Assembly (NCBI GenBank): GCA_947441065.1
Contig: CANESI010000006.1
Coordinates: 29,253-93,252 of the forward strand
From: Caulobacteraceae bacterium
GTDB taxonomy: Bacteria > Pseudomonadota > Alphaproteobacteria > Caulobacterales > Caulobacteraceae
Direction of reading: 5' to 3'
Length of the DNA stretch: 64,000 nt
Both the position numbers and the translations under genes were made by a program. Below are positions 8,350 to 59,233 of this stretch, piece after piece (position 1 is the stretch's first letter; each line of letters opens with the position of its first letter). Under the pieces are notes generated by a model. The model saw only the letters and a list, made by a program, of their open reading frames with translations, did no database searches and was not told where the DNA came from.

Positions 8350-8372
8350 GGGGGATGGACCCTGTTTTACCT

Positions 8373-8465
8373 GCGTCATTGCGAGCGCAGCGAAGCAACC
8401 CAGAGGACTGACACGAACCTGAATTGATGTTGCCCTAGATCGCTTCGCTGCGCTCGCAATGACGC
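8373..8465. repeat. Palindromic repeat family A: perfect 24-bp inverted repeat pair GCGTCATTGCGAGCGCAGCGAAGC / GCTTCGCTGCGCTCGCAATGACGC
   Basis: Arms 8373-8396 and 8442-8465 are exact reverse complements; a related copy lies at 59054-59087. Confidence 0.9.
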
Positions 8466-8530
8466 GGGGAGAGGGCTAGAACCGATAAGCCCTCTCCCTG
8501 TGGGAGAGGGTTGGGTGAGGGCCTTTTTTT
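8466..8530. repeat. Palindromic repeat family B (GGGAGAGGGCTAGAACCGATAAGCCCTCTCCC...GGGAGAGGGTTGGGTGAGGGCCTTTTTTT), possible terminator
   Basis: CCCTCTCCCtgtGGGAGAGGG hairpin; shares GGGAGAGGGCTAGAACCGATAAGCCCTC with the 37.1 kb copy; ends in a T tract. Confidence 0.8.
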
Positions 8531-32783: not shown

Positions 32784-34085
32784 CTAAGCTAACATCATCA
32801 GGGGGTCTTCGACCAATGCCTTGAAGTCATTTAACCACTGCGCGCCGATGGTCCCGTTCAGAACCCGGTGGTCACAGGTCAAGGTCACCGTCATCACCGT
32901 AGCGATGGCGAGGCTATCGCCGCGCACCACGGCCCGCTTCTCGCCCGCCCCAACCGACAGGATCGCGCCCTGAGGCTCGTTGATGATCGAGGCGAAGCTC
33001 TTAATGCCGAACATGCCGAGGTTGGAGATCGAGAAGGTGCCGCCTTGGAACTCTTCGGGCTTCAGCTTGCGGGCGCGGGCCCGGGCGGCGAGGTCCTTCA
33101 TCTCGGTGGCGATCTGGGCCAGACCCTTGGTCTCGGCAGCGCGGATGATCGGGGTGATCAGACCACCGTCAATGGCCACGGCCACGGCAATGTCGGCATG
33201 GCGATGGACCGCGATACCCTGCGGCGTATAGCTGGCATTGGCCATCGGCACGCGCTTGAGGGCCAGAGCCGCGCACCGAATGATAAGGTCATTGACCGAG
33301 ACCTTGACGCCTAAGGATTCCAGACCGGCATTGATCCGGGTGCGGGCGTCTAAAAGAGCGTCCAGTTCCAGATCGATGGACAGGGGAAAATGGGGAATGT
33401 CCCTGAAGCTCTCGGTCATGCGCCGCGCGATGGTCTTGCCCATGCCGTCCAGCGGGATCAGATCATAGGAACCCGGCGCAATGCCCATCTCTTCTAAGCT
33501 CTGAACCTGACGTGGTGCTGGGGCCTGTGTCGGCGCAGCTTGGACAGTGACGGGCCTCATGCCCGCCTGAGCGTCAATATCGCGCTTGATGATCCGGCCA
33601 TGGGGGCCGCTGCCGCTGAGGCTTGCAAGGTCCAAACCTACTGCCCGCGCTAGGCGGCGGGCCAGAGGCGAGGCCGCGATACGATCTGAAGCGGGCGAAA
33701 CCCCCTCCACCGCTTCGCGGTCCCCCTCCCCCAGTGGGGGAGGATTTGCCGCGTTCAGATCTTCCCCCTTTGGGGGAAGTCCCGGCGAAGCCGGGGAAGG
33801 GGGTGGCGGTGCAGAGACGGAGATAGCTTCACCCTCACCCTCCCCCTCACTGGCCAACTGAGCAATGACCCTATTGACCTTAACGCCCTCAGTCCCCGCT
33901 GCGACCAGCAGGGCTGAAATCACGCCCTCGTCCACAGCCTCGACCTCCATGGTCGCCTTGTCGGTCTCGATCTCGGCAATGACGTCGCCAGCCTTGACCG
34001 TGTCCCCCACCGCCACATGCCACTTGGCAAGGGTGCCCTCTTCCATGGTCGGAGACAGGGCTGGCATCAAAATGTCGATAGACAT
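32784..34085 (-). CDS. 2-oxoacid dehydrogenase E2 component (dihydrolipoamide acyltransferase)
   Basis: Single lipoyl domain ([17 protein letters not shown]), peripheral subunit binding domain ([33 protein letters not shown]), catalytic domain ending [17 protein letters not shown] at 34085 ([12 protein letters not shown]), not the track start at 34268. Confidence 0.93.
33700..33810. repeat. Composite palindromic element of family C lying in frame inside the E2 gene
   Basis: CCCCCTCCACCGCTTCGCGGTCCCCCTCCCCCAGTGGGGGAGGAT...AGATCTTCCCCCTTTGGGGGAAGTCCCGGCGAAGCCGGGGAAGGGGGTGG; same arm-spacer-inverted-arm layout as the intergenic copies at 52.9 and 59.1 kb. Confidence 0.85.
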
Positions 34086-34089
34086 GGGC

Positions 34090-36444
34090 TTAGCTCCCGT
34101 AATCGAGTGAGGCGGCGGCGGCGTCCAAGATCGCCTCCACATCCAGGCCATAGGTCCGATAGAGGTCGGGCAAATCGCCGGACTGGCCGAAATGATCCAT
34201 GCCAAGGGCCGAAACGCGAGACCCCTTGACCCCGCCCAGCCAGGACAGGGTTGCAGGCGGTCCATCAATGACCGTCACCAGCGAGGCCCCAGCACCGAGC
34301 GATGCCAATAACTTTTCGATATGGGAAGGCTCGCGACGTCCCTTGGCTCGCGCTTTCAAGGCCGCCGACCAGTCCAGATGCAGCCGGTCCGGGCTCGTGA
34401 CCGCTAAGAGGCCGATGCCGGGAATATCTTCGCGCAGTTGCTCAAAGGCCTCCATCGCTTCGGCGGCAATGGCCCCGGTATAGACCACAGCCATTTCTGC
34501 GCCGGGGGCGGGCTCGACCTGCCAATAAGCCCCGGCAATCACATCCGCGATCTGGGCGGCGCTCAAGGTCCGGTCTGGCTGTTCGAGCGCCCGAGTCGAC
34601 AAACGCAAGTAGACCGAATTGCCCTCAGGCTGCTGCATGAAGTCAAAGGCCCAGCGCATGATCTCGACCAGTTCATCGACAAAGGCCGGTTCGAAATAGC
34701 TAAGCTTGTCCTGCGCCATACCGATCAGGGGCGTGTGGATCGACTGGTGCGCCCCGCCTTCCGGCGCAAGGGTCAGACCAGAGGGGGTCGCCACCAGCAA
34801 GAACCGCGCATCCTGATAACAGGCATAGTTCAAGGCATCGAGACCCCGGTTGATGAAGGGGTCATAGAGGGTTCCGACCGGGATCAGCCTTTGCCCCCCA
34901 AACAGATCCCCCGCCAGACCCAAGGCCCCGAGCAGGAGGAACAGGTTGTTCTCGGCAATGCCCAGCTCGATATGCTGGCCATGCGGCCCCATCAGCCACT
35001 TTTGCGGCGAGGCGATGTTGCTGTCCTTAAACTGGTCATGGCGGTTATCGCGCGCAAAGATGCCGCGCTGATTGACCCAGCCGCCCAGATTGGTCGAGAC
35101 CGTCACATCGGGCGAGGTCGAGACGATGGCATCGGCCAGCGGTCCGCCCATCCGGGCCAGATCATTCATCACCTTACCAAAAGCCACCTGCGTCGATTGC
35201 TTACCCGTAGGCCGGGGGAAGGCATTAGCATCGGGCACAGCCACCATCGGGGCCGGTGCGTCCGGCTGGCGCTTGCCGAAGGGGGCATTGTCGATAAAGG
35301 TTTGGTAGTCTGAAGGGCTGCGCGGCAGGCCCGCAAAGGGCTCCCATTCTTGACCCTTAGGCACGCCCATTCTGGCTTGGAAGGTCTCCATCTGGGTCGG
35401 CGTCATCAGGCCCGAATGGTTGTCCTTATGGCCCTGAAACGGCAGGCCAAAGCCCTTGATCGTATAGACGATGAACAGCTTGGGCCTCTGGTCCGTTACC
35501 TCGTGGAAGGTCTCCAAGAGCAGGTCCATGTCATGGCCGGCCAGATTGGTCATCAAGGCCGCCAGCGCCTCGTCGTCATATTGGGCCAGCAACTCAGCAA
35601 TGCCGGCATGGGCGCTCAAATCGGCCAGCAGTTGCTTGCGCCACGCCTCGCCGCCCTGGAAACTCAGGGCTGCGAACAGGTCATTGGGGCAATCATCGAT
35701 CCAGGTGCGCAAATGCTCGCCGCCGGGCTGCGCGAACGCCGCCTCCAGCCGGTAGCCATATTTCAGAGTGATGACGTCCCAGCCCACCGCCGCGAAAATG
35801 TCGGTAAAGCGCAGGAACATGCTGTCAGAGGTGGTGGCGTCCAAGCTCTGGCGATTATAGTCGACGATCCACCAGGTGTTGCGCAGATCGTGCTTGGCCC
35901 CCTCGATCAGGCACTCATAGATATTGCCCTCGTCCAGCTCGGCATCGCCTAAGAGCGAGATCATCCGTCCCTGCCGCGCCGGGGACATGCGCTCATGGGC
36001 CAGCATATAGTCCTGCACGATTGAGGCAAAGGCGGTCATGGCCACGCCCAGACCGACCGAGCCGGTGGAGAAATCCACATCGTCCTGATCCTTGGTCCGC
36101 GACGGATAGGACTGGGCCCCGCCCAGCGACCGGAACCGCTGAAGCTGGTCCAAGGACTGGCGGCCATAGAGATACTGGATGGCGTGGAACACCGGGCTGG
36201 CATGGGGTTTGACCGCAATCCGGTCCTCAGGCCGCAGGACCGAGAAATAGAGCGCCGACATCACCGTGGCCAAGGACGAGGACGAGGCCTGATGGCCCCC
36301 GACCTTTAAGCCATCGCGGCTTTCACGCAGGTGGTTGGCATTGTGAATGGTCCAGGCCGACAACCAATGGACCTTGCGATCCAGGTCCCGGATCAGGTCT
36401 CGGTCGTCATTTCGGGCAGGCGACAGGGCGCTTTGGACAGACAT
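34090..36444 (-). CDS. Homodimeric-type 2-oxoacid dehydrogenase E1 / transketolase-family ThDP enzyme
   Basis: [104 protein letters not shown] at 36444. Confidence 0.85.
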
Positions 36445-36580
36445 GGACAAGAACCACTTTCGTGCCGTTGTGGGTTCTGGTCATATAGGCTAGATTTAAG
36501 AGTGATTATTGCTCATTTGGACCCGTAATATGGACTTGAGCAGTCGTTTTGAACTACGGTTTACGAGATATTGAGCGCAA

Positions 36581-37054: not shown

Positions 37055-37078
37055 GGGGGAGCATGAAAAAGGAAATAA

Positions 37079-37168
37079 GGCCCTCACCCTACCCTCTCCC
37101 ACAGGGAGAGGGCTAGAACCGATAAGCCCTCGCCCCCTTCAGGGGGAGAGGGTTGGGTGAGGGGGGAC
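37079..37168. repeat. Palindromic repeat family B, composite copy
   Basis: CCCTCACCCTACCCTCTCCCACAGGGAGAGGGCTAGAACCGATAAGCCCTCGCCCCCTTCAGGGGGAGAGGGTTGGGTGAGGGG. Confidence 0.85.
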
Positions 37169-38473: not shown

Positions 38474-38605
38474 GATGCGCTCTCTCCGGTGTACGTCGGC
38501 ACTCTGGCCGCTTACCCAAACCCTAGCGCGATTTGACAGCCATATCAGGGAGAAATTTTACGTGGGTTTGGCTGAAGGGTGAGGAGAAAGAGCAAAGAGC
38601 AGATA

Positions 38606-38696
38606 AGGCCCTCACCCAACCCTCTCCCTGAGGGAGAGGGCTAAGATAAGAAAAGCCCTCGCCCCCTTGGGGGAGAGGGCCTAAGTGAGGGGGACT
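38606..38696. repeat. Palindromic repeat family B, composite copy
   Basis: CCCTCACCCAACCCTCTCCCTGAGGGAGAGGGCTAAGATAAGAAAAGCCCTCGCCCCCTTGGGGGAGAGGGCCTAAGTGAGGGGG. Confidence 0.85.
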
Positions 38697-52905: not shown

Positions 52906-53018
52906 CAGACCCCCTACCCCGGCTTCGCCGGTACTTCCCCCAAAGGGGGAAGATTTGGCTGTAGTAGATCTTCCCCCTTTGGGGGAAGTGGCGCGCAGCG
53001 CCGAAGGGGGCCTTGTTT
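52906..53018. repeat. Composite palindromic element, family C
   Basis: GACCCCCTACCCCGGCTTCGCCGGTACTTCCCCCAAAGGGGGAAGAT...AGATCTTCCCCCTTTGGGGGAAGTGGCGCGCAGCGCCGAAGGGGGCC; near-identical flanks to the 59.1 kb copy. Confidence 0.9.
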
Positions 53019-53019
53019 A

Positions 53020-53115
53020 CCTTCCGTTTTCCCCGCGAAGGCGGGGACCCAGACCCGTCCACTCAGGCCGTTTGTTCGTGAGCCATCCTCATCCTTGGAC
53101 AGGCTCAGCACAAGG
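53020..53115. repeat. Repeat family D (TTCCGTTTTCCCCGCGAAGGCGGGGACCCAGACCC...)
   Basis: Same core as at 58889-58925, followed by GTGAGCCATCCTCATCCTTGGACAGGCTCAGCAC. Confidence 0.8.
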
Positions 53116-58865: not shown

Positions 58866-58888
58866 GGTCAGGGGCACCCTCGCCCTTC

Positions 58889-58935
58889 CGTCCGTTTTCC
58901 CCGCGAAGGCGGGGACCCAGACCCTTTCACTCAGA
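58889..58935. repeat. Repeat family D (TCCGTTTTCCCCGCGAAGGCGGGGACCCAGACCC)
   Basis: Same core sequence as at 53022-53056. Confidence 0.85.
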
Positions 58936-59053: not shown

Positions 59054-59087
59054 CGCGTCATTGCGAGCGTCGCGAAGCAATGACGCG
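59054..59087. repeat. Repeat family A, single copy CGCGTCATTGC-gagcgtcgcgaa-GCAATGACGCG
   Basis: Perfect 11-bp arms; same core as at 8373-8465. Confidence 0.8.
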
Positions 59088-59122: not shown

Positions 59123-59233
59123 GGACCCCCTACCCCGGCTTCGCCGGTACTTCCCCCAGAGGGGGAAGATTTAAAGCGTCAAGATCTTCCCCCTCTGGGG
59201 GAAGTGGCCCGAAGGGCCGAAGGGGGCCTTGTT
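59123..59233. repeat. Composite palindromic element, family C
   Basis: GGACCCCCTACCCCGGCTTCGCCGGTACTTCCCCCAGAGGGGGAAGAT...AGATCTTCCCCCTCTGGGGGAAGTGGCCCGAAGGGCCGAAGGGGGCCTTGTT. Confidence 0.9.

Follow-up and report, generated by a model that had tools for sequence, protein, structure and literature searches.

The E2 gene in this window (the whole stretch of 64,000 nucleotides that was analysed) raises the question of how one and the same palindrome can lie dispersed between genes and sit in an open frame inside the gene of a conserved enzyme, and whether it is the peptide or the nucleic acid that is being kept. We consider it very probable that a dispersed palindrome was inserted in frame into E2 in the ancestor of the genus and was tolerated there as linker, and that insertions into E1-beta and glyS came later. 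The E2 features concerned are:

32784..34085, minus strand: dihydrolipoamide acyltransferase E2 gene, PDH type, 433 aa (TIGR01349 and domain matches)
33702..33803, minus strand: in-frame palindromic repeat, type A/C, 102 nt, 34 codons, E2 residues 95–128
33782..33794, minus strand: outer hairpin of the A half (CCGGC-loop-GCCGG), from sequence
33761..33779, minus strand: inner hairpin of the A half (CTTCCCCC-AAA-GGGGGAAG), from sequence and folds
33744..33760, minus strand: variable spacer joining the A and C halves (12/13 sites vary among 8 E2 copies)
33725..33743, minus strand: inner hairpin of the C half (CCTCCCCC-ACT-GGGGGAGG), from sequence
33709..33721, minus strand: outer hairpin of the C half (ACCGC-GAA-GCGGT), from sequence; the C half is near-invariant, synonymous sites included

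The gene matches TIGR01349 with 477 bits (cut-off 445), lipoyl, E3-binding and catalytic domains were found in its product, and its nearest named relatives lie in the Caulobacterales. The first-pass annotation had described a coding palindrome here, and its sequence, coordinates and peptide are as described, the exact element being the 102 nt at 33702–33803 with a few more matching bases in the flanks, out to 33699–33810. Its placement between the lipoyl and subunit-binding domains, free of in-frame stops, agrees with our analysis as well, in that the insert (residues 95–128) falls between the Pfam lipoyl (5–77) and E3-binding (137–170) domains and is open for 34 codons. The window's own genome (G000; 2.92 Mb in 83 contigs, Caulobacteraceae-like) has two PDH-type E2 genes, one in the window (32784–36450) and one at L061. 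The former adjoins a transketolase-like E1, with an AsnC/Lrp regulator close by, and the second (C36) adjoins E1-beta; the two proteins are 91% identical, and the branching of these paralogues was not resolved in the E2 tree.

Aligned copies of the repeat share the order outer hairpin, inner hairpin (CTTCCCCC-nnn-GGGGGAAG), spacer, inner hairpin and outer hairpin, and the E2 copy accordingly has two arms with two hairpins each and a variable spacer in the middle. The outer stem of the A half is preserved in the E2 copies apart from G002_C6, its loop being variable. Two forms of the repeat occur, one with a type B end (...GGGGGAAGTGGCCCGAAGGGCCGAAGGGGG), which prevails in G000, and one with a type C end (...GGGGGAGGGGGACCGCGAAGCGGTGGAGGGGG), which is the prevailing one in G004 and G005. 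Type C is what the genus members have in E2 (the G001 copy is cut by a contig end), and the full-length G000 copies outside the two E2 genes reach at most 84% identity to the E2 copy among the 40 of 125 candidates that were scored. The likeliest reading is that an older form of the repeat survives in E2. Each of the 11 complete coding copies that were examined measures 102 nt, or 34 codons, and the coding copies found automatically are all 102 nt long and stop-free (9/9), as against non-coding type-C copies, 9/17 of which have this length and 7/17 a stop in that frame.

Within E2, the peptide and the palindrome have had different fates. In a small sample (six E2 genes for divergence, 8 E2 copies for site variability) amino-acid divergence is 0.192 in the element versus 0.057 in the rest of E2, and synonymous divergence is 0.063 in the element versus 0.269 in the rest; the C half, at 0.042, lies below all other 15-codon windows (360/360). 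The glyS genes of G004 and G005 follow the same trend (0.115 in the element versus 0.383). Among the E2 copies, 11/80 sites vary in the stems and other positions versus 8/9 in the loops (Fisher p=8e-6), and 12/13 vary in the spacer. The differences within the E2 element are spread about evenly over the three codon positions, and a test for perfect hairpins against synonymous shuffles was suggestive, and weak per gene. Since the peptide varies while the stems stay near-frozen, the peptide appears to be nearly neutral and the palindrome not, and we argue for either a constraint on the hairpin as DNA or RNA or its continual re-correction (by template switching or conversion), rather than a constraint on the peptide.

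Gene conversion or repeated replacement by other copies, in place of selection or plain vertical descent, is a possible though doubtful source of the stem conservation. The spacer divergence of 0.51, compared with the gene's synonymous divergence of 0.27 (on partly different gene sets), fits such a process, as does the turnover evident from the swapped halves in the G005 E1-beta gene; but in G000 no type-C copies turned up outside the two E2 genes, which leaves the C half, the better conserved of the two, with few potential donors. We think it unlikely that the palindrome is kept in E2 for a nucleic-acid task (an mRNA hairpin slowing translation from one domain to the next, for example, or an effect on transcript stability) with the peptide as its by-product. 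Stems that are near-frozen even at synonymous sites beside a variable peptide, and codon positions hit about equally, speak for this, but the same repeat is abundant between genes, outgroup E2s manage without it, re-perfection of the palindrome or conversion gives the same pattern, and the sample amounts to 6–8 genes.

How the segment came into E2 is best judged from sites that are empty in one genome and filled in another. In other genera of the family and order, E2 orthologues lack the repeat and have an Ala/Pro linker of the usual kind; the E2 site is filled in every genus member, the empty state being seen in other genera only. E1-beta, which likewise has a lipoyl domain and a linker, carries an in-frame repeat in G004 and G005, and its site is empty in G000, G001, G002, G003 and G006. 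In glyS (glycyl-tRNA synthetase beta) an in-frame repeat follows GGYYARAEGL in G004 and G005, with an empty site and a short loop in G000, G003, G006, G009 and G010. The intergenic copy at 52909–53018 is precisely missing in G002 and present in G006. These empty and filled sites show true insertion for E1-beta, glyS and the intergenic copy, and no clear target duplication was seen at the insertions. In the E2 tree G004 and G005 group as sisters, so there were at minimum three coding insertion events in the genus (E2, E1-beta and glyS), all in a single orientation and a single frame; the shared frame could be partly chance (about 0.035 by our own estimate from open-frame counts). The G005 E1-beta gene (L069 1595–1209) has two half-elements in swapped order, which suggests tandem duplication and loss, or movement of halves.

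The first-pass annotation had proposed that a dispersed repeat became the E2 linker, and the genome copies, the outgroup E2s and the empty sites elsewhere support this. It had named E2 orthologues in distant relatives with the same linker but no repeat copies in their genomes, or intergenic copies of unrelated sequence, as contrary findings. Neither holds: distant orthologues lack this linker, and the intergenic copies belong to the same repeat. All relatives within the genus carry the segment, and a genome search with the element yielded dispersed copies in the own genome and in the genus, where they are plentiful. It is very improbable that the linker was there first and gave rise to the genomic repeats: the presence of the repeat in E2 of all genus members is what such an origin would produce, but outgroup linkers are unrelated, the same segment also went into glyS and E1-beta, other genera have related repeats, and empty sites other than E2 disfavour it.

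Our survey of the genome was built on searches and sampled stretches. With the E2 copy as query, at least 40 copies were found in the own genome (40 of the 125 first-look candidates were scored), the best match being the second E2 gene (E=2.8e-38); among the candidates scored, dozens of dispersed copies lie at E values of about 1e-19 to 1e-23. Chance likeness among GC-rich, Pro-coding DNA has next to no standing, for although Pro and Gly codons make C- and G-runs, the dozens of genome-wide copies at E values of 1e-38 to 1e-20, with hairpins in register, refute it. The repeat is present in 7/7 genus genomes, and a few other genera give weak matches. Within 464 kb sampled from the own genome, partly for their known matches, 22 copies were found, of which only that in E2 lies deep within a real gene. 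Three long ORFs with the element near their start (G006:C81, peptidase-like; G006:C60; G000:C18) were rejected as coding cases; they look like spurious N-terminal extensions. The intergenic copies in the window are:

52909..53018, plus strand: intergenic copy, type A/B (site empty in genus-mate G002, filled in G006)
59125..59233, plus strand: intergenic copy, type A/B, from sequence comparison

Both had been reported at slightly wider bounds (52906–53018 and 59123–59233); they are real copies of the same repeat, and only the bounds needed correction. Likewise, the string AGATCTTCCCCCTTTGGGGGAAGT, said to be common to all, is exact at 52966–52989, and the copy at 59182 reads AGATCTTCCCCCTCTGGGGGAAGT, one base off.

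We suggest that a palindromic repeat, non-autonomous and about 104 bp long, with two arms of two hairpins each, would have entered E2 in the genus ancestor, landing so that it is open over exactly 34 codons in the direction and frame in which the gene is read. Lying between the lipoyl and E3-binding domains, the unstructured linker would have tolerated the insertion, which may be why it survived, and the insert would then have been inherited as linker; later the same repeat would have entered E1-beta and the glyS surface loop on the G004/G005 branch. Barring a stop or a frameshift the peptide would be nearly free to drift, and the stems may be conserved at the nucleic-acid level, through a constraint on the mRNA/DNA hairpin or re-perfection by template switching or conversion. 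Mobilization was presumably by an enzyme acting in trans; no RAYT/Y1 transposase (PF01797) was detected in the seven genus genomes (two >90% complete, five <90%), the controls being positive.

A floppy acceptor site is likewise predicted for glyS. In an AlphaFold2 model of G005 GlyS (mean pLDDT 83) the insert forms a loop with pLDDT <50 at 414–438, between helices 400–409 and 437–455, at a position between residues 421 and 424 of E. coli GlyRS beta (7yse); in this model the insert is a predicted disordered surface loop.

Other alphaproteobacteria, further Caulobacterales among them, have other dispersed repeats in frame at the same sites. The E2 linker of G013 matches a repeat of its own genome at 89% over 79 nt, the E2 gene of G035 contains a dispersed 24-bp repeat, and a Sphingomonadales MAG (L118) carries an E2 repeat with 97 matches in its genome (for a query 95% identical to the locus), part of this repeat occurring again at a second place within the same gene. 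For Mesorhizobium sp. AR07 the E2 repeat gave 68 further matches, at up to 95% identity over 56 nt, and for L091 it gave three; in glyS, the loop of G031 has 49/49 nt in common with a repeat of its own genome. Judged by sequence resemblance, the G013 and G031 repeats may be distant kin of the type-C end, and no relation to the genus repeat is apparent for those of G035, L118 and Mesorhizobium. When 74 alphaproteobacterial E2 linkers were compared by BLAST, 17 matches to their own loci were obtained, mostly Ala/Pro low complexity; among them L118 alone, with L075 as a possible second, appears repeat-like. Tentatively, the E2 linker and the glyS loop may be a recurrent landing strip across the Alphaproteobacteria for unrelated palindromes, the hairpins within genes being held at the nucleic-acid level while the peptide drifts (dual-function coding palindromes). 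Long insertions in the same glyS loop were also seen in G008 (L237), where it does not resemble a repeat, and in G015 (L247), with palindrome-like pieces; the linker or loop insertions of G008, G015 and G016 are odd-looking and unsupported as repeats, and the glyS case of G007 is weak.

The behaviour of the element is already known from two kinds of repeat. Rickettsia palindromic elements (RPE; Ogata et al., 2000/2002) are described in PMC10969869 and PMC2229807 as palindromes of about 100–150 bp that lie between genes and, tolerated in frame, in conserved proteins. The present repeat shares this dispersal between genes and within conserved proteins, and both intergenic and in-frame copies and relatives with empty sites were found; the parallel with RPE drawn in the first-pass annotation holds as a likeness in what the repeat does. 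In contrast to RPE, it belongs to a Caulobacteraceae-like, GC-rich lineage, has few coding versus many intergenic copies, and consists of two half-modules with exchangeable ends. The second kind, intragenic REPs of the GTAG and CGTC superfamilies, are presented by Di Nocera et al. (2013; PMC3733652) as hairpin dimers, mostly intergenic and some coding for 20–30 aa, with cases in tRNA synthetases of S. alaskensis and E. litoralis and two Xanthomonas whose recB genes carry different REPs at nearly the same place. Our repeat, too, consists of hairpin dimers that are mostly intergenic and in some cases in frame within known proteins. However, it differs from GTAG REPs in that the E2 copy has no GTAG and no RAYT was found in the genus (the string, which may or may not correspond to the REP tag, occurs in 20/22 G000 copies and 10/18 G004/G005 copies and is absent from the E2 copy), and the present case differs from intragenic REPs in that the recurrent use of a site, here the E2 linker and the glyS loop, extends over several orders. 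The CIR elements of Caulobacter (Chen & Shapiro, 2003), GANTC-bearing and strictly intergenic as reported in PMC2229807 and PMC10969869, are similarly alphaproteobacterial, of about 110 bp, with two hairpin arms and a linker; membership in CIR was rejected, GANTC being present in 0/40 copies. No Rfam match was obtained within the window, and a literature search of limited extent found no paper on repeats in E2 linkers or glyS. What is new is the family, the lineage and the recurrent landing site.

Outside Rickettsia, and with empty sites at hand, the repeat offers a route from selfish DNA to protein in core enzymes, and parasitic DNA may repeatedly turn into protein where the protein is floppy. 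That unrelated repeats have settled in the same linker in several orders amounts to a natural experiment on the insertion tolerance of proteins, and a free peptide with a fixed hairpin makes an intragenic RNA or DNA role testable against mechanical re-perfection. There is also a warning that linker ‘conservation’ and low-complexity protein matches can be repeat DNA.

Further repeats were observed in the window. A second dispersed repeat (TTTTCCCCGCGAAGGCGGGGACCCAGACC; 53020–53066 and 58888–58934) often adjoins the palindromic element, and since many genomic matches span both, they either move as a pair or accumulate together. Inverted repeats of the CGTCATTGCGAGCGCAGCGAAGCAA type (8370–8468 and 59054–59081) show a resemblance, and a resemblance only, to the CGTC REP family as presented in PMC3733652. 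A further dispersed palindrome, AGCCCTCTCCCTGTGGGAGAGGGTTGGGTGAGGGC, lies at 8488–8529, 37073–37114 and 38605–38642.
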